Shown here one piece after another: positions 39,751 to 54,463 of a DNA stretch of 58,099 nt; position 1 is the stretch's first letter; the number at the start of each line of letters is the position of its first letter. The stretch covers positions 1-58,099 of the IMG/VR virus record IMGVR_UViG_3300049043_000087, one strand, 5' to 3'. A model generated the notes under the pieces. The model saw nothing but the letters and a program-made list of their open reading frames with translations. It had not been told where the DNA came from and made no database searches. The DNA is from a virus. Both the position numbers and the translations under genes were made by a program.

Positions 39751-39772
39751 GTTTAACGTCGTGACCAGGACG
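39751..39772 (-). promoter_or_regulatory. CGTC-N8-GACG hairpin leader element
   Basis: Minus strand CGTC-CTGGTCAC-GACG followed by TTAAACTG, 35 bases before the ATG at 39722. Same architecture as elements at 43156, 44298, 47205, 52568 and 54448. The spacing and repeated placement suggest a promoter or 5'-leader signal. Confidence 0.6.
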
Positions 39773-39794
39773 GCCCTCGGCTACTGGAGATTGT

Positions 39795-40033
39795 TTAGTC
39801 TACGGACTCTGTCAAGTCCTCAGGCCAGTCAGGCATGTCATTGCCTAACGCTTCAGCACAGGCAGCATAAAGGGCATCCATCACAAAAGACTTCTGCCCT
39901 CCTCTTCTCCCCAGCTGTTCCAGAGTTCTAGATCAGGATCGGTTTCGTCCCATTCGATGTGAATGGTGCAGCTACCGTCTTCCTCATCAATCACTTCCAG
40001 ATTTAGCTTTTCGATCCAGTTCTTGTTCGACAT
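39795..40033 (-). CDS. Hypothetical acidic protein, frameshifted
   Basis: MSNKNWIEKLNLEVIDEEDG, SCTIHIEWDETDPDLELWNS, WGEEG and, after one indel near 39900, FVMDALYAACAEALGNDMPD and WPEDLTESVD. About 79 residues and strongly acidic, typical of small phage inhibitors of host enzymes, though that is only composition-based. Confidence 0.55.
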
Positions 40034-40039
40034 GGCCAA

Positions 40040-40204
40040 TCAGTACGTTTTGGGCGTAGTCTCATGATGCATCTTAAGGTCTGCAGCTAGCTTGACCAGC
40101 TCCCAGTGGGTGTCTTCTGGGACTTCAAGGTCATAGCGTGTGTGAGTAGTCATGCGTGATTTGAGTGCAAGTTGACGTGCGTAATCAAGAATGTCGTCAG
40201 TCAT
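40040..40204 (-). CDS. Hypothetical protein, 54 aa
   Basis: MTDDILDYARQLALKSRMTT, HTRYDLEVPEDTHWELVKLA. Start chosen at the Met that overlaps the stop of the PPPELV gene by eight bases; the open frame extends to 40243. No family recognised. Confidence 0.55.
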   Translation of the reverse strand: MTDDILDYARQLALKSRMTTHTRYDLEVPEDTHWELVKLAADLKMHHETTPKTY

Positions 40205-40556
40205 CAGGAAGCTGCTCCAGTGCTCGTCGGATGATTTGTTCATGTGCAGGTTGGTAGCACTGGTTTTCGCCTATGGCGGCAAAGTGCATTTTTAGTGCAT
40301 CCAGTGCCTGCTCCTTCAAGTTCGGTGGTTTTGGACGGCGGATGGCGCGGAGGTTATCGACCTCCCAAGGTGTCAGCCATTTTTTACAAAAGTCGAGAAC
40401 TGCCTCCAGCTCCTGGTCAGCTCCCCATTGGGCGGCGCGTATGGACAAATCCATATCACTTTCACCTAATAATGATGGTTTGCCATCGTTCCAGAATTGA
40501 GAAATCCACTGCTGCACCAGTTCCGGCGGTGGGGTGATGGGATGTTGTTGTGTCAT
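40197..40556 (-). CDS. PPPELV-family small protein, copy 3 (intact)
   Basis: 119 residues: MTQQHPITPPPELVQQWISQ, AAQWGADQELEAVLDFCKKW, WEVDNLRAIRRPKPPNLKEQ, ending IIRRALEQLPDD. Best-preserved member of the family with copies at 13.5 and 13.9 kb on the other strand. Amphipathic helices separated by a basic Pro-rich linker. Function unknown; here it sits among early genes, unlike the tail-side copies. Overlaps the upstream gene by four bases. Confidence 0.75.
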   Translation of the reverse strand: MTQQHPITPPPELVQQWISQFWNDGKPSLLGESDMDLSIRAAQWGADQELEAVLDFCKKWLTPWEVDNLRAIRRPKPPNLKEQALDALKMHFAAIGENQCYQPAHEQIIRRALEQLPDD

Positions 40557-41038
40557 TTCTTGACGGCTGCTTGGAGTTGAGGCAAAGCTGTACCAGGAAA
40601 TGGCACGTAGCCTGCGTCCATCATGTTAAAGAACAAATCCCAGGCGTCATGCTGGGTAAACACCTCCCTTGGTTTGTAAGTACGCCAATGAGTCAGCGGC
40701 GCTTGTGATCCTGACTTGGTATGCAGCAGGACAAAACGTCCATTACTGGTGGCATCAGAAGGGGGTGCGTACCACCAGGCCACACACCTATCAGGCGTAC
40801 CACTGGGGCTGGCATTCCTGGCTTCCGTGCGTTTGCACAGCAGCTCCTGTACTTCTGAATCCAGGTCAGGTGGATGCACCAAGGTCTGAAGCCCTGCGAT
40901 TTCTTGTTGGAACAAAGCCACATTGTTGAGCTGACGCTGAAAGGACCCGCATGAACACCAAGGTTCAGATGCCGGAGCGGTGCTTTCGTTGTCCACCAAC
41001 TCAGCGTCCAGATCAACGGGCCGATTTGGAAGCCGCAT
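40553..41038 (-). CDS. Hypothetical protein, 161 aa
   Basis: MRLPNRPVDLDAELVDNEST, CSCGSFQRQLNNVALFQQEI, PDRCVAWWYAPPSDATSNGR, VFTQHDAWDLFFNMMDAGYV. The frame is open back to 41266, but that part is the shadow of the upstream gene, so the Met at 41038 is preferred. No family recognised. Confidence 0.6.
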   Translation of the reverse strand: MRLPNRPVDLDAELVDNESTAPASEPWCSCGSFQRQLNNVALFQQEIAGLQTLVHPPDLDSEVQELLCKRTEARNASPSGTPDRCVAWWYAPPSDATSNGRFVLLHTKSGSQAPLTHWRTYKPREVFTQHDAWDLFFNMMDAGYVPFPGTALPQLQAAVKK

Positions 41039-41075
41039 CCCGTCCGGCGCAACCAGATGGCCCAGGTCCGTTTGG

Positions 41076-41492
41076 TCAGATTTGGAGCAAGGCTGTGAGT
41101 TTGTTGATGTCTGATAAGTGTATAAAACGGTCTGCCCAGTGCTTTTGAAGCTGAGCGTTTGGGGTGATGTGTCCGAGGGAGTGTCCATAGGTCCAGCCTT
41201 TGTAAAGGATATACGCGTTGTATCTCCACATCCCCGGACCCCGGTAGTCAGGTCCCAGGTATGCAAAGAAGTTTTTAAGACGCGTGGTGTAATCGTTAAA
41301 CGCGTGTTGGATCAGTGGCCGGTTGTAAGTTTGCTCACTACCATCCAAGCGCACCACAAGGCAAGAATCATCTCGGAGATAAATGCCGGCGACACCAGTG
41401 TCATCAAAGTCCTGGAACGCACGGCGTAGGTTCGACCGCGTGTAGATACAAGTTTGTGCGGCGTTAAGTTCTTGTTGAGTTTGGGTTGACAT
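41076..41492 (-). CDS. Hypothetical protein, 138 aa
   Basis: MSTQTQQELNAAQTCIYTRS, DDTGVAGIYLRDDSCLVVRL, NDYTTRLKNFFAYLGPDYRG, GMWRYNAYILYKG. Intact alpha/beta protein. The start follows CAACTCAACTCAGCCC, the CA-rich leader type. No family recognised. Confidence 0.6.
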   Translation of the reverse strand: MSTQTQQELNAAQTCIYTRSNLRRAFQDFDDTGVAGIYLRDDSCLVVRLDGSEQTYNRPLIQHAFNDYTTRLKNFFAYLGPDYRGPGMWRYNAYILYKGWTYGHSLGHITPNAQLQKHWADRFIHLSDINKLTALLQI

Positions 41493-41516
41493 GGGCTGAG
41501 TTGAGTTGGGATGAGA

Positions 41517-41715
41517 TCAGATGAAGAGGTCCTTGTTTGGATCTTCTTGCGTTTTGGTTTGTTTTGCATTGGAGTAAGCACTCTTTGCAACACGGTAGGT
41601 GGCATAAGCCAAAGCACCCCAGGCAACGGGATTCCCTACAACTGCAAGGATCACCAGCTCCTACCAAACCAAAGGTGCCAGCGGTAGCAATTGCCGCTTT
41701 TTCTTTAGGATTCAT
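41517..41715 (-). CDS. Small membrane protein, frameshifted
   Basis: MNPKEKAAIATAGTFGLVGA G, one-base shift near 41650, then VILAVVGNPVAWGALAYATY, RVAKSAYSNAKQTKTQEDPN and KDLFI. The corrected reading gives a Gly/Ala-rich membrane helix pair followed by a polar tail; the uncorrected reading is Cys-rich nonsense. About 66 residues. Confidence 0.5.
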
Positions 41716-41757
41716 TTGTTTGACTAGAATTAAAATAAATTGTTCAGTGGTGTACAA

Positions 41758-42024
41758 ATGGAAATCAAGTACGTTCCACTCAGTAAGTTCCAGATCGAAC
41801 CTTCAATGGAGGATAAGTTCTGGGAAGAGAAAGTCAAAAGGTCAATAGAAGAATGCAATTCAGTCAGTACCTTGAAAGAAATGGCGACCCTGCTTGCGCG
41901 GATCGCCACTCAACGTCAAGGTGTGATTCGTGGGCTAGTGCAGGATATGTTCATCTTCAACAATGTTGCAGTTGAACAAGAAGATCTGACCAACCCAGAG
42001 ATCCCGAACGGGAATAAACTTTAG
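41758..42024 (+). CDS. Hypothetical protein, 88 aa, lone + strand gene
   Basis: MEIKYVPLSKFQIEPSMEDK, FWEEKVKRSIEECNSVSTLK, EMATLLARIATQRQGVIRGL. Helical and charged. It is one of very few + strand genes in the early arm; divergent from the membrane protein and convergent with the DUF5895-like gene (four-base overlap). Start chosen at ATG 41758 rather than 41740. Confidence 0.6.
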   Translation: MEIKYVPLSKFQIEPSMEDKFWEEKVKRSIEECNSVSTLKEMATLLARIATQRQGVIRGLVQDMFIFNNVAVEQEDLTNPEIPNGNKL

Positions 42025-43121
42025 AGGGAGTCGTCCTCACCAGTCATTTCATCCCGAGCGGGAAGAGCTTTGACATCTACAGGATCCGTGGTGCGGGACA
42101 CAGGAAGAATCTCAACACCCGGCTTGATACCGTAGGCACCACCCAGCTTGTCAGCATCTTGCTTGGCATGGATGTTGATGTAATCATTGAACAGTTCCTG
42201 GAACTTCCAGGTGGACTCACGATCCTCATCGGGAATCGAAAGCTTGTTCAGTGATTCGATTGCGTCTTCCTGAGTGCTGTAATCAGGGATGTCAAAAGAT
42301 TCAATTGCGCAGATCTCAACGTTGTTGGCGCCGCGCATCTCATTGGCAAGTATTGGAGCAAATACGGTAGTGGCGTAGAACTTTTCATTAAAGCTCAGAG
42401 GGACTTCAGCATCCAATGCTTTGCTTAGGCACTTGGACATTTCCTTTTCATACAGGCGCACCTTCTCAGATACGTCAGTGCCATTAAGACCTTTGAGGGT
42501 CAGCACCATCGGAATCTTGTGGGCACGCTTATTATCCTGGGTCAGGATGTATACCAGGTATTTGGTACGCACGCTGTAGCGGCGCTTGTACATTTCACCT
42601 TTGCTGTTAGCCAGATCAGCAGCCACCTTGTCGTCATCGAACAAGGCCTTGACTTCTGGATTCTCAAAGGTGCCAATGGTCTGACGCATGCCGCTGGTTT
42701 CTTCCACCATCAGGGGAGAACGCAGCAGGATCTGGAGGCGAGGCTCAGTAAAGTTCAGACCTTCTTCAATGGAAGTGTTGGGTGCCATGCCAAAGGTCTG
42801 CTTGTAGTTCCAGATGACAGAACCTTTAGCAAAGTCAGATTCCTCTGCAGTCCAACCGCAGGTATCCAGATCGGACTTACGTACAAACCAACCACGGGTT
42901 TTGGACTTGTTAAGCGGTTGGATGGTCACCAGGTTCTGGTAACCCGATACAAATTCTTTGGACTGGAACATCTTGAAAGATTCCAGGCCACGGGTAGCAA
43001 GTGCCGAAGTTTTCTTCACAGTCATTTTGTTGGTGGTTTTCAGAGAGGGTGCAGAAGTGGTTTCAGATTCGAGTTCTTCCATCCAGGATTCACTCATCAT
43101 GTCAGTCGGAGCCGTAGTCAT
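42021..43121 (-). CDS. DUF5895-like protein, 366 aa
   Basis: Intact. A low-complexity Ser/Thr-rich start (residues 1-45), then SGYQNLVTIQPLNKSKTRGW, FVRKSDLDTCGWTAEESDFA, IWNYKQTFGMAPNTSIEEGL and RYSVRTKYLVYILTQDNKRA. I associate this with DUF5895, found in cyanobacteria and cyanophages; memory-based and not certain. Next to ssb and headed by its own hairpin leader, so a single-strand-DNA or recombination role is possible. Expected to be highly expressed. Confidence 0.6.
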   Translation of the reverse strand: MTTAPTDMMSESWMEELESETTSAPSLKTTNKMTVKKTSALATRGLESFKMFQSKEFVSGYQNLVTIQPLNKSKTRGWFVRKSDLDTCGWTAEESDFAKGSVIWNYKQTFGMAPNTSIEEGLNFTEPRLQILLRSPLMVEETSGMRQTIGTFENPEVKALFDDDKVAADLANSKGEMYKRRYSVRTKYLVYILTQDNKRAHKIPMVLTLKGLNGTDVSEKVRLYEKEMSKCLSKALDAEVPLSFNEKFYATTVFAPILANEMRGANNVEICAIESFDIPDYSTQEDAIESLNKLSIPDEDRESTWKFQELFNDYINIHAKQDADKLGGAYGIKPGVEILPVSRTTDPVDVKALPARDEMTGEDDSL

Positions 43122-43148
43122 GGTTGGTTCTGAGTTGGAACACGGATG

Positions 43149-43170
43149 CTTTTAACGTCATCCCAGGACG
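43149..43170 (-). promoter_or_regulatory. CGTC-N7-GACG hairpin leader element
   Basis: Minus strand CGTC-CTGGGAT-GACG followed by TTAAAA, 35 bases upstream of the ATG at 43121. One base shorter in the loop than its relatives. Confidence 0.55.
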
Positions 43171-43175
43171 GGTGC

Positions 43176-43460
43176 TTACTCTAATTCGTCTTGTTGCAAT
43201 GGCAAAGACGTTTGTTTCTTTTCTTGACATTGGAAGTGTTCTTCCGCAATGTCACGCATGCAGCCATAGATTACATCATCGTAATGACCACATCCCCGCA
43301 GAAAATCTACAATGTGTCGAATGATGTTATCTGTAAACACCTCCTGGAATGTTGTTAGGTTTTGGCTATTGCCATCCTGGTGCAACAAATAGAAAGTGTC
43401 ATGAGGAAGTTCTTTATCCAGAGGAAGAACAAACTCAAACTCAGGTTTTTGATTTTCCAT
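43176..43460 (-). CDS. Hypothetical protein, 94 aa
   Basis: MENQKPEFEFVLPLDKELPH, DTFYLLHQDGNSQNLTTFQE, VDFLRGCGHYDDVIYGCMRD, ending acidic. Its start overlaps the ssb stop (four-base type), so it is cotranslated with ssb. No family recognised. Confidence 0.65.
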   Translation of the reverse strand: MENQKPEFEFVLPLDKELPHDTFYLLHQDGNSQNLTTFQEVFTDNIIRHIVDFLRGCGHYDDVIYGCMRDIAEEHFQCQEKKQTSLPLQQDELE

Positions 43461-44266
43461 TAGAAAGGTGCCTCCTCTAGTTCAGGTGCAGCGCCGTATC
43501 GACCAGGCAACTCGGGCAGGCCCGAATTAACAGACCAAGGATCCCCCTCCTCTTCCGAGCCACGCCCGCCCCACAGGGGAGCTGCTGTATCCGACGACAA
43601 GGTAGTCGACGGTTTGATCTCCTGCGTGTTCGGTGTTTGATTCCCCTTGGGAGCCAAGGTCATAGAGATTAGCTGGATCTTGGTCTGGCTTTTCTTTTCA
43701 CCACTGGTATTATCCTTCCAGGAATCAGTGACCAGCCTGCCCTGGATTGTAAGACCAGTTCCCTTGCGTGTGAAATTAACCAGGAGTTCTGCGTTGTTTA
43801 ACTTATCCTCTGCCGTATTAATGGCATAGAAGTTAAACAGATCAGCTTGGTTACGCCCAGTGTTTACAGACAGTGTTTGATTACAGATCATCAACCCACT
43901 TTCCGTAGTTTTAAACACCCTGGCATCGTCCGTAGCAATGTCTTTAACGCAACGGCCGCTGAGGATGACGGTGTTAAGCATCGGGAACTGATCGTTGACC
44001 TGTACAGCAGTGCCGCCATGGAGCGAGTGTGTTCTGCTGTCGACATCAAAGCGTAGCTTGGCGCCGTGAATGTAGATGTAGTTTCCTTTACGGAGCCTAG
44101 AGAAACGCTCGGCGTTCTTTCCATAGATGTTGAGATCAAGTTGAGTTTGAGCTTTGTTACCCACGGGCGGCAGGATGACCGTGCAGCGCATGGCAGTTGA
44201 TGAAGCTGAGGTAAAAACCTCGCGCGGATCTTCGGACAGATACGCGTATATAGAAGCAAAGTTCAT
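43460..44266 (-). CDS. ssb: Single-stranded DNA-binding protein with two OB folds
   Basis: 268 residues, intact. Residues 1-90 look like a first OB fold (STAMRCTVILPPVGNKAQTQ; LRKGNYIYIHGAKLRFD). Residues about 95-205 are a canonical SSB fold: MLNTVILSGRCVKDIATDDA, FNFYAINTAEDKLNNAELLV, KGTGLTIQGRLVTDSWKDNT, QTKIQLISMTLAPKG. A disordered Gly/Pro/Glu linker ends in ELEEAPF, like the acidic tip of bacterial SSB that recruits partners. Coats ssDNA at the fork with the polymerase encoded just downstream in the map. It has its own hairpin leader. Confidence 0.85.
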   Translation of the reverse strand: MNFASIYAYLSEDPREVFTSASSTAMRCTVILPPVGNKAQTQLDLNIYGKNAERFSRLRKGNYIYIHGAKLRFDVDSRTHSLHGGTAVQVNDQFPMLNTVILSGRCVKDIATDDARVFKTTESGLMICNQTLSVNTGRNQADLFNFYAINTAEDKLNNAELLVNFTRKGTGLTIQGRLVTDSWKDNTSGEKKSQTKIQLISMTLAPKGNQTPNTQEIKPSTTLSSDTAAPLWGGRGSEEEGDPWSVNSGLPELPGRYGAAPELEEAPF

Positions 44267-44291
44267 GTGTTCGGAAGTTAGGTAAAAGGCA

Positions 44292-44313
44292 GTTTAACGT
44301 CGTACCTGGGACG
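44292..44313 (-). promoter_or_regulatory. CGTC-N8-GACG hairpin leader element
   Basis: Minus strand CGTC-CCAGGTAC-GACG followed by TTAAACTG, 32 bases upstream of the ssb ATG and directly after the corrected end of the polymerase gene. Confidence 0.6.
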
Positions 44314-44318
44314 TGGCA

Positions 44319-46176
44319 TCAGTGCGTGTTAGCCCAGCTACACCGACCCTTGAGTCGCCGTCAATCTTACAGCGAAATCCAAAAAATTCCTGTGCTTGCG
44401 GAAACGCACGCAAAGCTTGCTCTTGAATCACGGGCGTTAGATCCTTAGGACAGGACAGTTGGATCTCATCGTGAATCATGGCGTGTTGAATCCAATCATG
44501 CTCATGTCTTAATCCCAGTTCCATTAAGTTGTTATGTAAGTTAATGACAACTTGTTTCATGATGAGTGCGCCTGCAGCTTGCAGTAGAAGATTTAATCCT
44601 TTGAATTCAGACCTACAGAACAATGCACGCTATCCAAACCCCGTAGAAATCCACGGGATTGGATTGTTAATGCAATGTTTTCCTTCAAAGATTTAAGAGC
44701 TGGTACACCCTTCATGAATGAATTGATTGCAGCACTTCCTTTCTGACGTAATGTATCTGCATCTTTTTCATTCGGATCAATGATGGTTCCTGCTTTCATA
44801 GCGCCACATCCATAGAGCATTCCATACAGCAAACGCTTGCTTACGTCTCTGTTATCCACACCAAACTGCTGCTGGTTGTAAGTATGAATGTCAATAGATT
44901 CATCTGTTACCAGACGAGCGTATTCACCGTCATCCCAGATGGCTAGGTATCCGGCCAAGCAACGTAACTCAAGAGCCTTAGCATCGACCCCAATAAGGTC
45001 CCAATTATGAGGAGCGTGGAAAAGGTTTCGACATTCTTTTCCATATGGGGAGTAAGATGCTGGGACCTGACCCATATTTGGATTGCGGTGTGCGCAGCGC
45101 CCGCTAATGCAACCGTTAGTAACCAGATCGCCGTGCATACATAGGTCATTGTTGTTGACAAGCTTGAGCCAGGCATTGTTTCCATCAGCAATTTGACCAA
45201 GGCGTTTCTTGACCAGCATGTATTCAGCTAAGGGTCCAGCTTCGGGGTAGGGCAAAGCCGCGAGTATATCGTCATCAAGTATTGGATTTCCTTTTTCCGT
45301 TGTTTTGTCCGGCGTCCATCCGTACTTTTGTTTAAGTCGGTCAGCAATCTAGTACGAGATCCCGGATTGAATTCCTCAAAGCGAACCTTCGTGAAGGGCT
45401 GACCTTTAACATAGCCTCGTGTTTTGTTATTGACCTTAGGGATAAAGGTATCTTCATGCCGTATTGGCGGAAACAGTTCCTTTAGGCGGCTCTCAAGTTC
45501 CGCTTGCTTTGTTCTAAGGTCATCCACAAGATCAAGGCATGCATCAACATCAAAAGGAAAACCTGCTCGCACTTGTCGGTTAATTGCCAAGGCAAAGTCA
45601 TGCTCCAGTTTGAGCGCGGGTTCCGGATAGTTTTGGTTAACAATGAACTGCCAAAGCTTGCGAGTAACTGCAACGTCCTGGACGCAGTAGTCCAACATCT
45701 CTTGAGAATATGAGGAGAAGTCCTTGAACTCGATCTTATGATCGGCCAAGCGCCATCCCCATGCCTCAAGAGATGCGGTACCACGCCGCTTCGCTGGAAC
45801 TTGCGGATATTGTTCACTGTCTAATATCCTCTAAAACTTCTTTTGGCCAGATCAATCTGGTACAAATAAGCGTGTCGATAATGCGGCATTTGACGGAGAA
45901 TGAATGTAGTTTTTGTAGAACAGGGATGTCATAAAAAATTATGTTGTGCCCAATGAGAACATCAGCGGTTGCCAGATGAGCAAGAGCAGCATCAATGCTG
46001 TCAGGCCCATAAGTAAAAGTTTTTGCTCGTGTAATGTCATGGAGGACAATGCAAAAAACTTCTGTAGCTTGGTCATAAAGCCCATTGGTTTCGATGTCAA
46101 AAATCAACCAGGTTTCATTTTCTGAACCGGGCTTCATCTTGAATTGAGAGTTCTTCACCGGCAAGAGTTTTGTCAT
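44319..46176 (-). CDS. DNA polymerase I family (T7-like) with 3'-5' exonuclease, frameshifted
   Basis: About 615 residues. N-terminal exonuclease: WLIFDIETNGL (Exo I), VLIGHNIIFYD (Exo II) and SQEMLDYCVQDVAVTRKLWQ (Exo III). Polymerase: DLIGVDAKALELRCLAGYLA (motif A), SKRLLYGMLYGCGAMKAGTI (motif B) and IHDEIQLSC (motif C). Motif A has DAKALELR where T7 has DASGLELR. Indels near 45780, 45345-45260 and 44615 split it into four frames; near the end another indel gives the canonical WANTH terminus and a stop at 44319. Main replicative polymerase, paired with the primase-helicase and ssb. Confidence 0.88.
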
Positions 46177-46348
46177 TGTTGTTAATCCACGCCAAGATCG
46201 ACTGAGCCCCTGCCCTGTAGGGATGGGAGAAAATCCTGTTCAGAGCTACTTCTGAATCTAACGGAATTAACAGAAATTGTTTGTCAGAAGGACAGGCAGT
46301 AATGGCGTACGGCCTGCCCTCTTTCCACGTAGCAATAACGTAAGACAT
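46115..46348 (-). CDS. Hypothetical protein, 77 aa
   Basis: MSYVIATWKEGRPYAITACP, SDKQFLLIPLDSEVALNRIF, SHPYRAGAQSILAWINNNDK. Alpha/beta. It overlaps the polymerase start by about 60 bases; the polymerase may instead start at a later Met (MKPGSENETW), which would reduce the overlap. Confidence 0.6.
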   Translation of the reverse strand: MSYVIATWKEGRPYAITACPSDKQFLLIPLDSEVALNRIFSHPYRAGAQSILAWINNNDKTLAGEELSIQDEARFRK

Positions 46349-46404: not shown

Positions 46405-47172
46405 TTACGTTATCTCCTGATTTGATTTGCCGTATCCCACAAATCCACCTTCTTTCTTGCGTTGAGAGATAGCTTTGCTTGCGTCAGAGCCAGCACGCTG
46501 GGAGCCATGAACCAGCAATGCAAACGGTTTGTCACCTAAGCAATGACTGTCATCATGGTCAATTTCTAAACCACGTTTAACAGCTTCTGCTTCTGTGTAA
46601 ACAACGTAAGCAATACGTTGAAATACCTTTGGATGTTTAGGAATTAAGTAGTCAAGCGTACCACCACAAGATGCAGTGAAATAAAAGTTAGCTGGAATCT
46701 GATCAACTAGGTTTAACCACATGCCAAGGGATTTGGTGTAAGCATAAAACTTTTGTTGAGGCCTTGTTTGTGCAGCCATAAGCCAAGCCTTCATGTAGTT
46801 CTCAGTCCAGAAATCGCCAGCTTCATGGACCCGCACCAAATCTTTGGGTGGCATCATGGTCAACGACACATCAATAAGTTTGCAAAGCAAAGCAGCCTGG
46901 TCTTCACCGGAATACATGACTTCTCGCAACAAATCCCAGTTGTGCCAACGAGCATCACGTACGTTAGGCCTAACTTCTGCCATAGCAGAAAAACAACGGA
47001 ACTCATCTGCAATAGTGCCAGTGAGCTGCGGTAAATCTGTAATAGCACCTGTGGTTCTATCTGCAAATGTTTTGCAAACGCCAGCGTTTGGGCATGAGTA
47101 ACCAGATGGCAAGCTAAAGATCAAACGATTCTTGAGCTTACCGTTACCGGTAGAAAACTTAAGGAGTTTCAT
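46405..47172 (-). CDS. Gp88-like phage protein
   Basis: 255 residues, intact. Start KLLKFSTGNGKLKNRLIFSL, PSGYSCPNAGVCKTFADRTT: the TGNxKL...FSLPxGxSCPxAxxC pattern of the Gene product 88 family. Also VHEAGDFWTENYMKAWLMAA and YFTASCGGTLDYLIP. Cys-rich, perhaps metal-binding; function of the family unknown. Has its own hairpin leader and a CAATTCAATTCAACTC-ATG start context. Confidence 0.7.
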   Translation of the reverse strand: MKLLKFSTGNGKLKNRLIFSLPSGYSCPNAGVCKTFADRTTGAITDLPQLTGTIADEFRCFSAMAEVRPNVRDARWHNWDLLREVMYSGEDQAALLCKLIDVSLTMMPPKDLVRVHEAGDFWTENYMKAWLMAAQTRPQQKFYAYTKSLGMWLNLVDQIPANFYFTASCGGTLDYLIPKHPKVFQRIAYVVYTEAEAVKRGLEIDHDDSHCLGDKPFALLVHGSQRAGSDASKAISQRKKEGGFVGYGKSNQEIT

Positions 47173-47198
47173 GAGTTGAATTGAATTGAATGAAAGCA

Positions 47199-47220
47199 GT
47201 TTAACGTCATACTCAGGACG
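47199..47220 (-). promoter_or_regulatory. CGTC-N8-GACG hairpin leader element
   Basis: Minus strand CGTC-CTGAGTAT-GACG followed by TTAAACTGC, 33 bases upstream of ATG 47172. This exact element, over 25 bases, recurs at 52562-52583 and 54442-54463. Confidence 0.7.
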
Positions 47221-48125: not shown

Positions 48126-48325
48126 AGTGAATTGCAATGTAGGAAGTAATGATACTTGGCACCCCAAGGATCTGTGTACTGAACCACGTCACAGTTGTTG
48201 TATTTATCTACAACCTTGAACTTAGGTTCAGCTTCAATTGTTTTACCAAACATTGCATAAAACAAAAGAAGAAAAACTAATGAAGCAATTACTGCAACAA
48301 CAACCATTTGAGTACGGTCGTCCAT
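48122..48325 (-). CDS. Small membrane protein, 67 aa
   Basis: MDDRTQMVVVAVIASLVFLL followed by LFYAMFGKTIEAEPK: one N-terminal membrane helix; then a polar domain (YNNCDVVQYTDPWGAKYHYF, LHCNSL) with two Cys. Coupled to thyX and the next gene by short overlaps. Confidence 0.7.
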   Translation of the reverse strand: MDDRTQMVVVAVIASLVFLLLFYAMFGKTIEAEPKFKVVDKYNNCDVVQYTDPWGAKYHYFLHCNSL

Positions 48326-48621
48326 TATTCTCCTGGCACCGATACATTTTTCATCATGCTCTCAAGATCACGTTCGTGACAGATACGAAATGATGCGTGT
48401 TCTCTTGGTGACTTGAGATGATCCCATTGAATTACCAACATGTTTTGCTTGGCCTTGCGTGTAGTAAGTTTGGTTTTAAATCCAACGACCACACCATACC
48501 GTTGTGTACGGTATTGAGCAGTACGCTCTTTGCTTTCTTTTCGGGTAGCAATAATCCCATGGGTCTTGGGGCGTTCCGCAACGCGATCACCAACCCGAAA
48601 GACAACAGGTTTTCGTTTCAT
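48325..48621 (-). CDS. Hypothetical basic protein, 98 aa
   Basis: VVFRVGDRVAERPKTHGIIA, RYGVVVGFKTKLTTRKAKQN, MLVIQWDHLKSPREHASFRI. The beta-rich GDRV...GVVVGF...VQWD pattern resembles small SH3-like barrels (KOW-like). Nucleic-acid binding is plausible. Confidence 0.6.
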   Translation of the reverse strand: MKRKPVVFRVGDRVAERPKTHGIIATRKESKERTAQYRTQRYGVVVGFKTKLTTRKAKQNMLVIQWDHLKSPREHASFRICHERDLESMMKNVSVPGE

Positions 48622-48968
48622 GATTCGTACCAGGTGCAGTCAGAGGATTCAGAAGTGTCGTATTCAGGGAAATCATATGCACACTGTTCGCCATTGTTGT
48701 GTTTGCAATCAGTACACATATATGGTTCCTGTTGTGTTTGAGCTGGCGTAGTGTTAAGCAGTTTATAAAACTGACTAACCAAAAACAAATTCCGCTTTGC
48801 TTCCTCAAAGAAGTCAGATGTAACTTCATGGGTAGTAAAGCGTTCCTTGCAATAATCACATTGTTTACGCCGACGCGTAGAAAAATGTGTTTGCCTGCTT
48901 TCGATAACACGCAAACCAGGTTGTTTGCAGTGTGGACATTCAGGAAGAAGAGTCTTCTGAAACGCCAT
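48618..48968 (-). CDS. NrdR-like zinc-ribbon protein without ATP cone
   Basis: 116 residues. LPECPHCKQPGLRVIESRQT and RRRKQCDYCKERFTTHE match the zinc ribbon of NrdR, the repressor of ribonucleotide reductase genes. The following ATP-cone of NrdR is absent; instead there is FFEEAKRNLFLVSQFYKLLN and a second Cys cluster CTDCKHNNGEQCAYDF. Possibly a DNA-binding protein acting at NrdR boxes. Confidence 0.6.
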   Translation of the reverse strand: MAFQKTLLPECPHCKQPGLRVIESRQTHFSTRRRKQCDYCKERFTTHEVTSDFFEEAKRNLFLVSQFYKLLNTTPAQTQQEPYMCTDCKHNNGEQCAYDFPEYDTSESSDCTWYES

Positions 48969-49384
48969 TAGTTTGGATCAATAGAACAAGGTGTGTTATC
49001 AGTAGCTTCCTGTTCTTCTGCTTCTCGTTTCTCTTTAGGAACAGGAATCTTATCCAGTTGCAGTGAATCCAAGATATACAAAGTGGATTCTTCTCCTTTA
49101 ATGCGGAACATATCTGGAATAATCTCCATTGGATTTTGGAGATAGTAATCAATTAGATACAGTTCACACATTTTGAACATAGTTTCCATTGGCAACTCAT
49201 CAACGATGTTTGCCACGGAAGCTTCAAGGACGGCAGGCCATGTATGCCTGGGAATCATGTCGCATACTTTAAGGACAAGATCCATGTCCACCTCAGCAGG
49301 CTGAGGGATTTCTTCCTGTTGTGTTAATACATCTTTATAAGCTTGAGGCAGTTGACTTTCCATTGTTTCTGGGTTGAGTTTCAT
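48968..49384 (-). CDS. Hypothetical protein, 138 aa
   Basis: MKLNPETMESQLPQAYKDVL, VLKVCDMIPRHTWPAVLEAS, YYLQNPMEIIPDMFRIKGEE, then an acidic end. Helical and intact. First gene after the terminator at 49391; probable head of the thyX operon. Confidence 0.65.
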   Translation of the reverse strand: MKLNPETMESQLPQAYKDVLTQQEEIPQPAEVDMDLVLKVCDMIPRHTWPAVLEASVANIVDELPMETMFKMCELYLIDYYLQNPMEIIPDMFRIKGEESTLYILDSLQLDKIPVPKEKREAEEQEATDNTPCSIDPN

Positions 49385-49388
49385 AAGA

Positions 49389-49416
49389 AAGAGCCCCCGC
49401 TTATAGCAGGGGCTTG
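49389..49416 (-). terminator. Rho-independent terminator
   Basis: Minus strand AGCCCCTGCTATAAGCGGGG followed by GCTCTTTCTT: strong stem with a short AT loop and a T-rich tail, 20 bases past the 120-aa gene and just before ATG 49384. Confidence 0.8.
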
Positions 49417-49433
49417 AACATTCCGGCTTGATA

Positions 49434-49796
49434 TTAGGCGGGTTGAGCGGATGTGTCCACTACCTGCTCCATCAAGCCAGCTTCTTTAAGGCGATCGAGC
49501 ATGCCGCACATAATGTTGGCATGGGTATGGGTTTGTTCCATGAACATGCGTGCTCGGTCTGCTGACATAGTGTGGACCCTACCGTCGGGTTCCACATACT
49601 TCCAGCTGCCATCAGGCTGGGGATCACCCTGGAGGGCAAGACGTTCTGAGTTTCGAACGTACCGTAGCTCGAGGTTGTGATAGTCCTTAAGACCGTCAGC
49701 CGCTGTCCAGGTTGCGCCAATGTTGTAGCGTTGCTCATCATCAGAATACGCGTGGAACTCTGGAATGAGATGACGAAAAGCAGAAAGGAATTCCAT
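49434..49796 (-). CDS. Hypothetical protein, 120 aa
   Basis: MEFLSAFRHLIPEFHAYSDD, NIGATWTAADGLKDYHNLEL, YVEPDGRVHTMSADRARMFM. Intact. Lies 20 bases downstream of the tRNA and is bounded by the terminator. No family recognised. Confidence 0.65.
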   Translation of the reverse strand: MEFLSAFRHLIPEFHAYSDDEQRYNIGATWTAADGLKDYHNLELRYVRNSERLALQGDPQPDGSWKYVEPDGRVHTMSADRARMFMEQTHTHANIMCGMLDRLKEAGLMEQVVDTSAQPA

Positions 49797-49815
49797 CGTC
49801 GTAATAAGTTGTAGT

Positions 49816-49893
49816 TGGTACCCGAGGTGAGATTCGAACTCACGCTAGAGCGATTTTAAGTCGCTTGCCTCTTCCGCTTGGGCTACTGGGCGT
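49816..49893 (-). tRNA. tRNA-Leu (anticodon UAA), short variable loop
   Basis: Minus strand. T arm GTGAG-TTCGAAT-CTCAC, anticodon arm AGCGA-CTTAAAA-TCGCT with UAA at positions 34-36, D region GCCCAAGCGGAAGAGGC, and an encoded CCA after CTCGGGT-A. The 5' acceptor ACGCCCAG pairs imperfectly with CTCGGGT, with one extra base, probably a read error. The variable region is only about five bases, whereas bacterial tRNA-Leu is normally class II with a long arm, so identity is by anticodon. Confidence 0.8.
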
Positions 49894-49899
49894 ACCTGG

Positions 49900-50104
49900 A
49901 CTTACCTCTACATCAATGGATGTTGAGTGCCAGGTATGGTCATGGGGTAACGGCTCAGTGCCATAATCCCATGTGTACGTGAGTCTTCCTCATCTGCGAG
50001 GATCTTCTTCAATCAGATATGTGCTGGTGGTGAATTGTCATGGATAAATTCACCAATGTTTGCCATGGCCATAGCCGAAGAGCTGGCTTATCGGTGTAGC
50101 TCGG
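49900..50104. other. Region with at most a broken microgene
   Basis: A minus-strand start MAMANIGEFIHDNSPPAH near 50076 runs out of frame after 18 residues; fragments in other frames follow but none is convincing. Otherwise no feature is seen between the tRNA and the terminator. Confidence 0.3.
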
Positions 50105-50109
50105 TCATA

Positions 50110-50147
50110 TTAAAAGGGGATCCTGTAGCGAGGATAGGATCCCCCAA
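50110..50147 (-). terminator. Rho-independent terminator
   Basis: Minus strand GGGGATCCTATCCTCGCTAC then AGGATCCCC followed by TTTTAAT: nine-base stem with a 12-base loop and a T-run. Ends the gene at 50158-50523. Confidence 0.8.
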
Positions 50148-50157
50148 TGCTGTATGG

Positions 50158-50523
50158 TCAGCCCACAGAGCTTAGCGCCTTGTCTCGGGTTTTGCAACGC
50201 TACCCGGAAGGCTTCTGTGTACTGCTGCTTGAGATGATCAGAGAGAACAGAGTTGGACAAGCCACGGATCTGTTCTACTGACATGAAGCCATTGTTGACC
50301 TTGAGCTGGATGGTAAACTGAGGTTTGCCATCAATCATGCAGAGCACAATAAAGTGCTGTTTTCTGCGGACGCCCTCAGCATATCCAGAGGCAGAGCCCG
50401 ACGCAGTTGCGTCACGGCCTGACCCCAAAGGGCAAGCTGATGGGTGTCATGGGGCTGGAAGAATGTCCAGATCTCCTGGCCCTGCTCAACCTTGATAGGT
50501 TCTGGAAACAGATCTTGAGGCAA
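50158..50523 (-). CDS. Hypothetical protein, about 120 aa, frameshifted
   Basis: MPQDLFPEPIKVEQGQEIWT, PLDMLRASAENSTLL, then after an indel near 50340 IVLCMIDGKPQFTIQLKVNN and LSDHLKQQYTEAFRVALQNP. A further indel near 50175 would give the end DKALSSVG and a stop at 50158, just before the terminator. No family recognised. Confidence 0.5.
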
Positions 50524-50621
50524 GCCCTCGTTGGGATTACTGATCTTCCAGGATTCTGCTTGAACATAATCATGGAACTCAGCAATACGCCAACGTTTGG
50601 GAGGCTCAGAGTGTTTCCTTG

Positions 50622-51273
50622 TTATGAGAGGATGCGAGCAAGCATGGATACAGTGTCATTCCAATCACTGAAGTGATGAACATGACAGTTGAGGTCTTGA
50701 CTCCAGTTGTATCTGTCTCTGTTTGATTCCTGTTGTTTCTCATGGAACTTGGCAAGCATGCCAAAGAATGAACCAACAGGACATATGCTGACGCAGCCAT
50801 TCTGCCGCCTTGTCAGAACTATAGTTCCTGAACCTGGCACGCAGGCCCAGGTCATACATCTGTTTCTGATAGCAAATCGACAGGGCAGTCCAGGCCAGAT
50901 GCGTCTGAACATGTAGGACGTCCCCAGCGAGTCGCACCTGACCGGCGTCCGACACCGCACATCGATCTCCCGTCTGATAACCGACAGGCAGGCTATTGCT
51001 GATGCAGCAATGGATAGCTGAAGTTCTTCCTGCATCCATTTACGGAAGTATGGAGTATTAAAGATATGGCTGTCTTGCACTTTATCGATGTATCGCAGTT
51101 CATGAGTCCAGTTGACATAACTGGCATAGTGAGTTGCTGCTTTAGCAACAGACAAACAAGTTGTCAACTGGTCTAATTGCCAGCCAACTCTGCTTATCTT
51201 CTGGGATGTGCTTGTTAGAAGTTTCAACAGCTTTCCAGATCTCGTTGGCATTGCATGCGTGCAAATGTCTCAC
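50622..51273 (-). CDS. Hypothetical protein, about 215 aa, frameshifted
   Basis: GTG start overlapping the upstream stop (GTGA). Pieces in order: ACNANEIWKAVETSNKHIPE, then VAKAATHYASYVNWTHELRY, MQEELQLSIAASAIACLS, LHVQTHLAWTALSICYQKQM, YSSDKAAEWLRQH, GMLAKFHEKQQESNRDRYNW and SQDLNCHVHHFSDWNDTVSM. Indels near 51165, 50960 and 50790. Helical, Trp-rich. No family recognised. Confidence 0.5.
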
Positions 51274-51347
51274 GCGAATCTTTCCCAAGTAGGGATACTT
51301 TCTTCTAATGCTTTACGGAATTCGTCTACCGCTTGGTGAGACTTCAC
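51270..51347 (-). CDS. Microprotein, 25 aa
   Basis: GTG start; VKSHQAVDEFRKALEESIPT then WERFA. Helical. GTGA-type overlap with the next gene supports translation. Tentative. Confidence 0.4.
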   Translation of the reverse strand: MKSHQAVDEFRKALEESIPTWERFA

Positions 51348-51355
51348 GGCTCTTC

Positions 51356-51451
51356 TCAGTAGTAAGAAGCAAGGTGATCAGCACGCACCTTGGCCCTGGT
51401 GTAACCATTAAAAATATCTGGTTCGGTTAACTGTAGTTCTGGTGTACACAT
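51356..51451 (-). CDS. Microprotein, 31 aa
   Basis: MCTPELQLTEPDIFNGYTRA then KVRADHLASYY. A polar start and an amphipathic helix. It overlaps the end of the upstream gene by 25 bases. Tentative. Confidence 0.4.
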   Translation of the reverse strand: MCTPELQLTEPDIFNGYTRAKVRADHLASYY

Positions 51452-51916
51452 AAAATGTGGCTACGGCCTACCTGTACCGGCGTGCATTCATCAATCTTGT
51501 CCGGCGTCGAGCGACTAAGAACCTTACGTGCAGAAGCCGTATCTTTAAAACGCAGGTAGCGAAACCATAAACATAATCTTCGCCCTGCGGCGGTAGCCAC
51601 ACGCAGCGTACCAACACTGTTCGGTAGTGGTAGAGGATTGCTTTTGTAAGTAAGCGAGCACGGAGTTGCAACATCCACAGGCGTAGTAAATTTCTGAAAT
51701 CGATAACGTGCCTCATTGCCATTGATGTTATCGATTGCGTCTTGTCTGTAATGATTCTCTTATAACTGAATGTGGAATGAGATGAGGAATGTTTCCTGAA
51801 CTGGATACTTAGATTTCTTGGCAGGATTCTGTTTGCGTTGTTGACGAGCCAGTGCTTTGAGCTGGGTCATACGCCAACAGTTCAGTTTGTAGGTTGGAAG
51901 GTAGTTGGAATTGCAT
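51427..51916 (-). CDS. Hypothetical protein, frameshift and internal TAA
   Basis: A start at 51916 (MQFQLP) is placed right after a hairpin leader; an indel shifts to MTQLKALARQQRKQNPAKKS (from 51870). The same frame continues after a TAA at 51760-51762 with ENHYRQDAIDNINGNEARYR, FQKFTTPVDVATPCSLTYKS and KDTASARKVLSRSTPDKIDE to 51427. About 160 residues if joined. Basic. No family recognised. Confidence 0.4.
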
Positions 51917-51949
51917 GGTAAGTTTGGAGTTGAGTTCGGAGTTCGGCGA

Positions 51950-51972
51950 GCAGTTTAATGCTCATGCTCAGG
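51950..51972 (-). promoter_or_regulatory. Variant hairpin leader element
   Basis: Minus strand TGTCCTGAGCATGAGCA followed by TTAAACTGC: a diverged member of the CGTC-N8-GACG family with the distal TTAAACTGC intact. About 41 bases before ATG 51916. Confidence 0.5.
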
Positions 51973-51980
51973 ACAGCTGA

Positions 51981-52073
51981 TCAGTTCATGAACCCAGTGG
52001 CCAGGTAAACTCTGCCCTTAGGTCCACGAACAATGATGTACCAGCGTTTGAATTCGATAGAGAATCCAATCAT
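51981..52073 (-). CDS. Microprotein, 30 aa
   Basis: MIGFSIEFKRWYIIVRGPKG then RVYLATGFMN. Beta-rich. The start overlaps the upstream stop (ATGA), supporting expression. Confidence 0.5.
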   Translation of the reverse strand: MIGFSIEFKRWYIIVRGPKGRVYLATGFMN

Positions 52074-52330
52074 GGATCTAGATTCCAATCGGATGTGTCG
52101 ACAAGTTGCCAGTTAAGATCGAGTGAATGGAGATAGCTACAGAACCCATCTTCGTCAGTAGGGATCTGTTCGCCATCATCCAATTTGAAAGATGCTGAGC
52201 GAAGAGCTGGAGCCCATTCCTCAGGATCAAAATATGATCCTCGATAAAGGAGGCGCATATCCTCCACAACCGCTGTAACTGTGACATTAGTTCCGTTGAC
52301 TGAAGTGTCTTCAATAGCAAGGACTGACAT
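52070..52330 (-). CDS. Hypothetical protein, 86 aa
   Basis: MSVLAIEDTSVNGTNVTVTA, VVEDMRLLYRGSYFDPEEWA, PTDEDGFCSYLHSLDLNWQL. Acidic alpha/beta protein, intact. No family recognised. Confidence 0.6.
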   Translation of the reverse strand: MSVLAIEDTSVNGTNVTVTAVVEDMRLLYRGSYFDPEEWAPALRSASFKLDDGEQIPTDEDGFCSYLHSLDLNWQLVDTSDWNLDP

Positions 52331-52359
52331 AAGTCATACCTCAGTAAGCTGACGTGGTT

Positions 52360-52534
52360 TCATAAATTCAGAATCAGGTCCAAGTACTTTTCAACAAGAT
52401 CAGGAAATGCATCAAGCAAACGCTGACGATTTACTGGATCTGCAAATTGCAAAGTTTGTGCCGAATGCACTAACGAATGAACCGCCACTAGCCTGCATGA
52501 GACAGAGCATGGCAAAAAACTGTGTTTGATTCAT
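52360..52534 (-). CDS. Hypothetical protein, about 58 aa, frameshifted
   Basis: MNQTQFFAMLCLMQASGGSF V, shift near 52465, then HSAQTLQFADPVNRQRLLDA and FPDLVEKYLDLILNL. First gene after an exact hairpin leader. No family recognised. Confidence 0.45.
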
Positions 52535-52561
52535 GGATTGAATTGCAATGTGATGTGAGCA

Positions 52562-52583
52562 GTTTAACGTCATACTCAGGACG
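52562..52583 (-). promoter_or_regulatory. CGTC-N8-GACG hairpin leader element
   Basis: Minus strand CGTC-CTGAGTAT-GACG followed by TTAAACTGC, identical to the copies at 47.2 and 54.4 kb, 34 bases upstream of ATG 52534. Confidence 0.7.
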
Positions 52584-52588
52584 GATCT

Positions 52589-52813
52589 TCAGAATAATTT
52601 AATATTCCGTTTACTCAATCCTGTGCCAGGCAATGACACAGAGCCAAGCAGGCCGCTAGGGCGAGCGTTGACTGTGAATTGAAATGGTCCAAGTTTGAAT
52701 GACTTGGTATAACTTTTGATGCCACGCTCGGGGGTGATGTTGACACCAGCAATGGTGCGATCAAAGTTAATGCTGATTTCTTTTGAGTCATTAGTCAAGG
52801 AGTTTGATTGCAA
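52589..52813 (-). CDS. DUF4236-like small protein, 74 aa
   Basis: KEISINFDRTIAGVNITPER, GIKSYTKSFKLGPFQFTVNA, RPSGLLGSVSLPGTGLSKRN. The KxxKLGP...VSLPGTGLS pattern resembles DUF4236, a short beta-repeat domain of bacteria and phages. The end overlaps the hairpin leader region. Resemblance by motif only. Confidence 0.55.
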   Translation of the reverse strand: MQSNSLTNDSKEISINFDRTIAGVNITPERGIKSYTKSFKLGPFQFTVNARPSGLLGSVSLPGTGLSKRNIKLF

Positions 52814-52862
52814 TGATTGTGAAACAGATCAGTGCTGTTACTAGGACTAAAGCTTCTGCCAT
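52791..52862 (-). CDS. Membrane microprotein, 23 aa
   Basis: MAEALVLVTALICFTIIAIK then LLD: a single membrane helix and almost nothing else. It overlaps the start of the next gene (22 bases). A real but tiny gene by composition and packing; function unknown. Confidence 0.5.
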   Translation of the reverse strand: MAEALVLVTALICFTIIAIKLLD

Positions 52863-52864
52863 GC

Positions 52865-52921
52865 TCATCGAAGTTCGTCAGGCAGGAGCATGTTGGTGTC
52901 TTTCTCGTTCATGTTGGACAT
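52865..52921 (-). CDS. Microprotein, 18 aa
   Basis: MSNMNEKDTNMLLPDELR with a stop two bases before the next ATG. Could be a leader peptide for the membrane microprotein rather than a functional product. Confidence 0.3.
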   Translation of the reverse strand: MSNMNEKDTNMLLPDELR

Positions 52922-52931
52922 GACGAATGTT

Positions 52932-53072
52932 TCAGCCGTCAGGTGAAATAAATCCACCAACAAATCCCATACCGTATTTATCTGCAGACTCACGCATCTT
53001 GGCAGTGAGTTGCATGAAGGCAAGCTTCTGTGAATCTAATGAATTAGGAATGGTTGGTTTGTTGGATGACAT
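52932..53072 (-). CDS. Hypothetical protein, 46 aa
   Basis: MSSNKPTIPNSLDSQKLAFM, QLTAKMRESADKYGMGFVGG. Helical, intact. Start at 53072 is preceded by CATCTCAACTC and, 30 bases up, a hairpin; residues upstream in the open frame are non-coding. Confidence 0.55.
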   Translation of the reverse strand: MSSNKPTIPNSLDSQKLAFMQLTAKMRESADKYGMGFVGGFISPDG

Positions 53073-53101
53073 GAGTTGAGATGGTGATAGGTGAATGGAG
53101 T

Positions 53102-53132
53102 CTACCAGTAATGTCAAGGACGTACTACTGGT
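53102..53132 (-). promoter_or_regulatory. Leader hairpin TACCAGTA/TACTGGTA
   Basis: Perfect eight-base inverted repeat TACCAGTA-N15-TACTGGTA, 30 bases upstream of ATG 53072, in the position that the CGTC-N8-GACG element has elsewhere; the loop contains GTCAAGGACG. Confidence 0.5.
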
Positions 53133-53399
53133 ATGTAATAAATCCTTCTTATCGAATAAAGGATTTCTCCCTGGTACTCCCCTTCGGGGGTCTGGGGGCT
53201 GCTCACATCGGATACGCTCCTCCTGCAGGGACTCACTGGGCCAATGATTGTTTAGGGGATTCCGCTTGGTTCAGGCCCAACCGGAAACACCGACCATTTT
53301 GTTGAAGCAAACAAAATGGTTAGCAACGATGAAGCAAGGGGCGCCTGGCCGCACCAGGCTTAGGTTCTAATGCGAACCAGCCCTTTGCTTTACCAACAA
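53133..53399. ncRNA. Structured non-coding region with tandem hairpins (candidate RNA)
   Basis: About 265 bases without a gene but with several hairpins in a row: AAATCCTT-N11-AAGGATTT (53140-53166), CTCCCC-TTCG-GGGGTC near 53177-53192, ACCATTTTGTT-N6-AACAAAATGGT near 53292-53320, and GCCTGG-CCGCA-CCAGGC near 53343-53360. The spacing and diversity go beyond one terminator. It could be a non-coding RNA on either strand, a transcription attenuator, or a replication-related locus. Confidence 0.4.
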
Positions 53400-53655
53400 T
53401 CACTTGTGTGCTTCCTGGTGTTCTTTCCATGCAGCAGTGTGCATTTCATCCATAGTTATGGGTGGTTCACCAGTCAGATCATCATCTGATGGTTCGTCCC
53501 ACCTCAGTTGCTCTTTCGAGCAGACCAATAGCTTCCAAGATCAGCTCTGGAGCTTCATAAGGAAGTGTTTTGTCTGGCCAATCGCGTTTGTCTTCGCGTT
53601 GGTAGATAGCACTGAGTTCTTTAAGGATGAGATAAATGCGACGTTCTTCACGCAT
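53400..53655 (-). CDS. Hypothetical protein, about 84 aa, frameshifted
   Basis: MREERRIYLILKELSAIYQR, EDKRDWPDKTLPYEAPELIL, EAIGLLERATEV, one shift near 53505, then RWDEPSDDDLTGEPPITMDE and MHTAAWKEHQEAHK. Charged and helical. Preceded by a nine-codon leader frame and a strong hairpin. Confidence 0.5.
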
Positions 53656-53668
53656 GGCAAAAGGTTAT

Positions 53669-53730
53669 CTGTGTACCGTCTGAGCGTTGGTACACAGTTG
53701 TTATTCAAAGTGCAGTTCAGTTTGTGACAT
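53669..53730 (-). promoter_or_regulatory. Leader peptide frame plus hairpin (attenuator candidate)
   Basis: A nine-residue frame MSQTELHFE (53701-53730), itself preceded by GCAATTCAACTC, is followed by a perfect hairpin CTGTGTACC-N11-GGTACACAG that ends 13 bases before ATG 53655. The layout resembles a translational or transcriptional attenuator; there is no T-run after the stem. Confidence 0.4.
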
Positions 53731-53861
53731 GAGTTGAATTGCAGTGGGGTTAAAGCAAAGCCTGGTATTCATCCACGAAGTTTGCTACGATACATAAGTA
53801 AAACTTATATGCTGATTGGTGCTTTAATCATTAGATTAAGCCAAGGATTGAAAGCCACGAG

Positions 53862-54169
53862 TCAGGGTGGTCCGGTTCGACCTTCTTCGTCGTCTGGCGT
53901 GAAGCAGACGCTGTCGAACGACCACTCCTCGATGTCTTCGTTGGTTGGGACATCGTACCAACCTTCGAGTTTCTCTTCGGTGTGGACTGGTTTCCAGTAG
54001 CAGCGCAGGGTTCCTCGCTTGTTTCTGTAGACACAACCAGTGGTTGGTGCTCCAGGTTTGTCTGGATCCCAGTTGATGTCAGCTTGAAATTGTTCTTGGG
54101 CTTCCTCTTCGGAGAAGGGGACGTAGCCAAAGCTTTCTGCAATGGCTTGGAGCTTGTTGGATGAAGCAT
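53862..54169 (-). CDS. Hypothetical acidic protein, about 103 aa, hidden by a start-codon indel
   Basis: The convincing frame is not the longest one here. It reads ASSNKLQAIAESFGYVPFSE, EEAQEQFQADINWDPDKPGA, CVYRNKRGTLRCYWKPVHTE, GWYDVPTNEDIEEWSFDSVC then FTPDDEEGRTGPP, with a stop at 53862. The ATG at 54169 (after CTC) is one base out of phase, probably a lost G (ATGGCTTCA). The two longer overlapping frames are Ser/Arg-rich and implausible. Confidence 0.6.
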
Positions 54170-54236
54170 GAGATGAACTCCGTGATAATAATTAGAGATG
54201 ATTGTGATAATGATAATGATGATGTCTGGTTCTTGA

Positions 54237-54296
54237 TTAGCTTTCGTCATCGTATTCCTCAGCATTAATTACGTTGAATCCAATGAACTGTACCAT
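54237..54296 (-). CDS. Possible microprotein, 19 aa
   Basis: MVQFIGFNVINAEEYDDES overlaps the end of the 46-aa gene in another frame. It may be a separate microgene or the true C-terminus of that gene after an indel. Confidence 0.3.
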   Translation of the reverse strand: MVQFIGFNVINAEEYDDES

Positions 54297-54409
54297 TGTC
54301 GTTCGACGAGGGTCCATTCGGATTGATCTGATTCACGCATAGCCTGCTCTTGTTCATATGCCATGTCAGCCATGGCATCTAGCAAGTCAGCGTTGTAGTT
54401 GTTGTCCAT
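54269..54409 (-). CDS. Hypothetical acidic protein, 46 aa
   Basis: MDNNYNADLLDAMADMAYEQ, EQAMRESDQSEWTLVERQWY. Start preceded by CAATTCAACCC and the hairpin leader at 54448. Highly acidic helix; possibly an inhibitor of a host protein (composition only). Confidence 0.55.
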   Translation of the reverse strand: MDNNYNADLLDAMADMAYEQEQAMRESDQSEWTLVERQWYSSLDST

Positions 54410-54441
54410 GGGTTGAATTGAATTGATAAAAGGAACGAGCA

Positions 54442-54463
54442 GTTTAACGTCATACTCAGGACG
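54442..54463 (-). promoter_or_regulatory. CGTC-N8-GACG hairpin leader element
   Basis: Minus strand CGTC-CTGAGTAT-GACG followed by TTAAACTGC, identical to two other copies; 39 bases upstream of ATG 54409. Confidence 0.7.

Follow-up and report, generated by a model that had tools for sequence, protein, structure and literature searches.

What is the short element that stands ahead of several genes on the minus strand of the viral record IMGVR_UViG_3300049043_000087 (IMG/VR, positions 1 to 58,099; this whole stretch of 58,099 nucleotides (nt) is called the window here)? From the letters alone it had been proposed to be an undescribed leader element, a CGTC-N8-GACG hairpin plus a fixed TTAAACTGC at a set distance from the ATG, with kept stem bases and a varying loop. 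This was a real observation but an incomplete one: the loop bases complement those right after TTAAAC, and the element therefore comprises a helix S1 (CGUC/GACG), the linker UUAAAC and a second helix, S2, formed by the loop and the downstream bases. With near certainty, it is a compact H-type RNA pseudoknot of 27-29 letters, in which S1 has the form N-G-W-C (usually CGTC/GACG) and is followed by the loop C-Y-[S2]-H, the linker and S2'. Since the second helix had been overlooked, a search with the hairpin alone would have missed the structure; a nested folding program is unable to draw the pseudoknot and often favours S2 over S1. The element was rightly called undescribed inasmuch as neither the window nor 13 of the phage loci matched any family of Rfam 15.

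Both helices are borne out by covariation. A scan of viral contigs for different stems found at least 118 stretches with CGTC/GACG, 90 with GGAC/GTCC and at least 120 with CGAC/GTCG, but 2 with the broken-stem control CGTC/GTCC; a full S2 of 5 base pairs (bp) was present in 160/186, 48/56, 49/69 and 0/2 of the respective non-redundant matches. In an anchor set (n = 192) picked without requiring pairing, S1 was formed in 182 and S2 in 150 sequences, compared to 59 and 69 expected from shuffled partners. Among 80 distinct sequences, 94.6% of the pairing cells were paired (76.0% after shuffling), the covariation score reached 0.554, compared to 0.210 after shuffling and at most 0.108 after sliding, and compensatory, two-sided changes were found at six of nine pairs; some invariant columns of the alignment stem from the selection anchor. 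With a looser structural descriptor, 3.8 Mb of fetched sequence yielded 434 hits and the same sequence reversed yielded none; the descriptor added the stems CUC/GAG, CAC/GUG, GUG/CAC and GAG/CUC, and the middle pair of S1 was always A-U or U-A in its hits. The stem bases are thus not kept, as had been assumed, but exchanged with compensation, and the loop does not vary freely but covaries with the bases following TTAAAC, in S2 over dozens of pair combinations. An uncompensated loss of the stem was looked for and the opposite was seen: both helices switch with compensation ahead of one single gene family, with CGTC/GACG, GGAC/GTCC, TGTC/GACA and GGTC/GACC swapped before the same downstream gene. 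A hairpin with a fixed stem and a free loop is contradicted by this covariation, and a selected structure at the level of RNA, sited in the leader, is supported. A short-loop form, CGTC-AAGCTG-GACG-TTAAAC-G[YAGC] with an S2 of 4 bp, was also seen in cyanophages, together with CGCC/GGCG stems (L002:251, L006:6433(-), L018:2949(-)).

In the window, CGTC-N6-10-GACG-N0-3-TTAAAC occurs five times (0.00 expected from 100 dinucleotide shuffles). All six hairpins of the original prediction were recovered on the minus strand (39772-39757, 43170-43156, 44313-44298, 47220-47205, 52583-52568 and 54463-54448), as was the identity of three copies over 25 bases. The first ATG follows 32-39 bases past the 3' end of the hairpin, and the 5' end of the copies lies 47-60 nt upstream of an ATG. 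Copy 1 (54437..54463) has the S1 CGUC/GACG, the linker UUAAAC and the S2 GAGUA/UGCUC, and precedes an open reading frame (ORF) of 46 amino acids (aa) starting at 54409. Copy 2 (52556..52583) has the same S1 and an S2 UGAGUA/UGCUCA; it starts 5 nt past the stop of the preceding ORF and its ATG is at 52534. Copy 3 (47194..47220; S2 GAGUA/UGCUU) lies ahead of the GP88 gene (46405..47172, ATG at 47172; PF17338, E 5.4e-39) and copy 4 (44287..44313; S2 AGGUA/UGCCU) ahead of the SSB gene (43460..44266, ATG at 44266; PF00436, E 9.3e-13; phrog_44, E 5.6e-30). Copy 5 (43144..43170), again 5 nt past the stop of the preceding ORF, precedes a DUF5895 gene (42021..43121, ATG at 43121; PF19247, E 1.2e-12). 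TTAAAC does not follow every hairpin: copy 5 has TTAAAA (linker UUAAAAGC), a 7-base loop and the S2 GGAU/AUCC. Copy 6 (39744..39772) combines the S1 CGUC/GACG with an S2 of 7 bp (CUGGUCA/UGACCAG) and is followed by a 39-aa ORF with its ATG at 39722. The diverged copy noticed near 51950 was confirmed at 51948..51975, likewise on the minus strand; one G is bulged out of its S1, UGUC/GA(G)CA, and its S2, GAGCA/UGCUC, is intact. It stands before a PcfJ-like gene (50192-51916, minus strand) that is frameshifted into at least four frame segments and is intact in relatives (approximately 570-608 aa); a degenerate pseudoknot is expected there if the element decays along with its gene. In all, the genes after the window copies are the 39-aa ORF, those for DUF5895, SSB and GP88, and three further short ORFs.

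Elsewhere, the copies are intergenic as well, in mRNA leaders and intercistronic gaps: 15 of 376 non-redundant copies in viral loci lie within a long ORF, compared to 462 of 1128 random sites. The end of the element is 20-24 nt ahead of a start codon in 139/353 copies, and a TAA stop at -8 to -6 is the only signal upstream. The proteins encoded downstream fall into 134 sequence clusters; in Gram-positive phages the capsid scaffold is repeatedly the downstream gene, in at least two PHROG families. Since the element stands before at least 100 unrelated proteins in unrelated phages, it probably targets host machinery or acts mechanically.

The tailed phages that carry the element have cyanobacteria, Firmicutes, Actinobacteria or Proteobacteria as hosts; crAss-like phages and one microvirus have it as well. 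Named phage records with both helices include those of Synechococcus, Nostoc, Geobacillus (D6E), Staphylococcus (about 88 records), Lactobacillus, Anoxybacillus, Moorella, Corynebacterium and Moraxella, and also a Vibrio phage. Both helices are likewise present in Mycobacterium phages, with the linker AAAAAC, and in Roseobacter/Lentibacter phages, with the linker CTAAAC; a form with an S1 of 3 bp occurs in phages of Cylindrospermopsis and Paracoccus, in the crAss-like cr7_1 and in a Microviridae genome. In Rhizobium and Ruegeria (alphaproteobacterial) phages, a variant linker ends in AAAG or AAAAAG and is followed by GCTCA, which pairs with TGAGC (L436:1201-1228, L449:1001-1029). Matches to CGTC-N8-GACG-TTAAACTG in GTDB genomes are mostly due to chance, with the second helix in just 19/61. 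The 5,426 E. coli genomes searched gave no match at the sensitivity used, and a BLAST hit in an E. coli plasmid was dismissed as chance because TTAAAC is absent. The Escherichia phage vB_EcoM_SA91KD carries a perfect S2 (TGAGCA/TGCTCA) with AATAAAC and a doubtful S1 (L446:1001-1028), possibly a variant of E. coli phages.

Which function could such a knot have ahead of so many different genes? The closest likeness is to coremin (xrRNA-C), an Xrn1-resistant RNA (xrRNA) of plant viruses published as GUCCGAAGACGUUAAACUAC (PMC10520033) and present in Benyvirus, Cucumovirus and other RNA viruses. In 63 distinct phage copies the core GUCC...GACGUUAAACU is identical to that of coremin. Like the first, 5' hairpin of coremin (hp1), S1 is a stem of 4 bp with a GUC/GAC core, CGUC/GACG being the commonest form besides many compensated variants; the first loop base is C, the penultimate one A, and the conserved spacer UUAAACU follows right after the stem (T, or U in the RNA, directly after TTAAAC in 363/365 copies). 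Both elements lie in intergenic or untranslated regions (UTRs). The C and the U of the spacer, nearly invariant in the phage copies, are essential in coremin; there, 6-8-base loops are tolerated, and variants with such loops, CGAGUAA included, stop Xrn1 (PMC10520033). Furthermore, a different xrRNA halts the bacterial RNase J1 in vitro (PMC5760640), which makes a roadblock to 5'-3' decay mechanically plausible in bacteria.

We therefore propose, at even chance, that the element may be a coremin-like phage roadblock to 5'-3' decay by RNase J or a similar enzyme, which would leave a stable 5' end shortly before the gene that is to be protected. The knot would be mechanically rigid and would halt an exonuclease advancing in the 5'-3' direction; in most of the hosts concerned this would be RNase J. 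Phage or host endonucleases would first cut the polycistronic transcript upstream of the knot, decay would then halt at the knot, and the product would be a stable mRNA, monocistronic or from a short operon, whose 5' end lies just before the knot and approximately 50 nt from the start codon. Genes in high demand (ssb, the capsid scaffold and others) would be protected in this way. Flavivirus and tombusvirus/solemovirus xrRNAs, of which one halts RNase J1 in vitro, also have a pseudoknot as the proposed mechanical block and occur in tandem arrays, but their three-way-junction or ring folds are bigger and do not resemble the element in sequence. Two pseudoknots, 42 nt apart and with the stems GAG/CTC and GAC/GTC, stand in tandem in crAss cr7_1 (L224:1950-2030); this resemblance to tandem viral xrRNAs speaks for a roadblock. 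The broader reading, that exonuclease-resistant RNAs sharing their core with plant-virus coremin form a widespread family in DNA viruses of bacteria and act there as internal mRNA-protection signals of polycistronic transcripts, is tentative, and we hold it to have a little less than an even chance.

Several observations weigh against these readings. The coremin loop rule YGAD/YGNNAD holds for a single copy among 163 distinct ones: the phage loop has U or C instead of G at position 2, although the penultimate A is retained, and the loop CCGAAA, with G at position 3, failed in the coremin context. Coremin requires a second hairpin (hp2), but no stable downstream fold follows the window copies (z -1.7 to +1.1), and one was found after only a few Gram-positive copies. 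Because neither the loop rule nor the second hairpin is kept, we do not claim membership in coremin; the likeness could be due to convergence or partly to chance. The phage element also differs in that it occurs in DNA phages of bacteria upstream of ORFs, whereas coremin is mainly found in 3' UTRs, in that its stem covaries freely in sequence, and in that its exonuclease resistance is putative. In place of the second hairpin it has the loop-linker helix S2, which may replace it and would do its bracing job. RNase J was only slightly more frequent among element-bearing hosts (16/23) than among chance-match genomes (13/29; Fisher p 0.096). Copies in Vibrio and Moraxella phages and on an Acinetobacter plasmid argue against a strict dependence on RNase J; these genera are relatives of groups that are poor in RNase J. 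From structure, distribution, leader position and core identity, all of which are shown, we infer the blocking of an exonuclease with evenly divided confidence. In some Firmicutes loci a second hairpin (CGTGG...CCACG-TAAAA or CGTCC...GGACG-TAAAA) follows the element, perhaps a second knot or an hp2-like structure (L448:1001-1060, L055 near 5459(-), L098 near 2462(-)).

Of the three functions suggested originally, an RNA-stabilising 5' element fits best, and such an element need not be a roadblock to RNase J. The knot could stabilise mRNA more generally by blocking 5'-end-dependent endonucleases (RNase E/G/Y or RppH-primed decay) in hosts with or without RNase J. This would account for the gammaproteobacterial copies and fits the leader position, and there is precedent for 5' stabilisers in Gram-positive phages (phage SP82 early mRNA). 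These and the aprE leader likewise place a structure in the leader that is thought to guard mRNA against decay from the 5' end; but they are based on a hairpin or on ribosome binding and are no conserved pseudoknot family, a plain hairpin would be enough for this purpose, and the conserved linker, the A-U middle pair and the identity to coremin would stay unexplained, so that we consider general stabilisation unlikely, albeit worth keeping in mind. Only a shade less probable is an action on ribosomes, in which the knot would stop post-termination ribosomes from drifting into the next leader or would position the 30S subunit. Coremin also stalls scanning eukaryotic ribosomes, the spacing has peaks (the knot commonly begins 5 nt past a stop and ends 20-24 nt ahead of a start codon), and just 6/38 window genes have a Shine-Dalgarno site. 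However, genes of this phage that lack the element generally lack Shine-Dalgarno sites as well, by which a Shine-Dalgarno substitute was rejected; copies with Shine-Dalgarno sites lie at other distances (median 58 nt), and in 5/7 window copies the upstream stop is 37-279 nt off. Because these five have no stop nearby, a stop-codon readthrough pseudoknot, considered for the copies 5 nt past a stop, was ruled out, too.

A regulon repressed or activated through a host or phage protein would agree with the many copies inside one phage, with the copy before ssb and with the invariant unpaired linker, which suggests recognition. The precedent is the pseudoknot bound by gp32 in the T4 gene 32 leader, also an H-type pseudoknot in a phage mRNA leader; it is, however, an autogenous operator of a single gene, whereas the element has a conserved linker and precedes many genes in many phages, and the 134 downstream clusters rejected a gp32-type operator confined to the gene of its own binding protein. 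Unrelated phages of many bacterial phyla, and a microvirus too, share this RNA, which stands ahead of more than 100 unrelated genes; a phage protein common to all of them is therefore implausible, and a host protein would have to be conserved from cyanobacteria to the crAss hosts; an RNA operator is improbable, and the phage-regulator site suggested before unlikely. More remote still is a signal in the DNA, i.e. a phage promoter or another protein-binding site. The distance to gene starts is fixed, the record of Staphylococcus phage phiJB labels its copy "putative promoter P5R" (L445:290-330), and TATAAT-like sites show a slight excess with a maximum of 12/354 at -10 (background about 2). Yet the phiJB copy looks like the RNA pseudoknot instead, conserved -35/-10 boxes of the sigma-70 type were found neither upstream of nor within the element, sigma-70-like sites were not enriched in the region (13 compared to 20.4 expected), and upstream conservation is limited to the stop codons. 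The covariation is that of a single strand and spans two helices, with non-palindromic pseudoknot pairs and G-U pairs, and disfavours the promoter proposed before. A ligand-binding riboswitch or small pseudoknot-type ribozyme (preQ1-like or pistol-related) is equally far-fetched. It would suit the compact H-type fold with conserved loop bases, and the P1/pseudoknot region of the pistol ribozyme also has a short stem, a loop-to-downstream pseudoknot and UUAAA after the stem; but the element has no catalytic core, no expression platform and no Rfam match, pistol included, and its downstream clusters share no pathway. With more than 100 downstream families, a riboswitch or operator of a single gene was rejected. 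An intrinsic terminator was correctly excluded at the outset: the element has no T-run after its stem and no copy is among the terminator-like hits.

A short RNA knot outside Rfam, with strong covariation and present in phages of several bacterial phyla, is a testable and portable regulatory part. Should it block RNase J, phages would have, within the literature searched, their first exonuclease-resistant RNA; no open-access paper tied xrRNA or coremin to phages, an earlier description elsewhere being possible, and the motif string was absent from open-access papers except for coincidental primers. In that case the knot would also explain how phages fine-tune the levels of ssb, scaffold and other genes inside operons, xrRNA-based sculpting of mRNA would be common to bacterial and eukaryotic viruses, and one would have to ask whether the knot and plant-virus coremin have a common or a convergent origin.

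The copy on the small Acinetobacter plasmid (L450:1001-1028) has a 10-base loop and is oriented against the 3' end of a replication gene. The window DNA itself resembles the freshwater cyanophage S-EIV1 over approximately 1 kb only (77%), and its early region carries a tRNA-Leu with the anticodon TAA at 49816-49891 on the minus strand.

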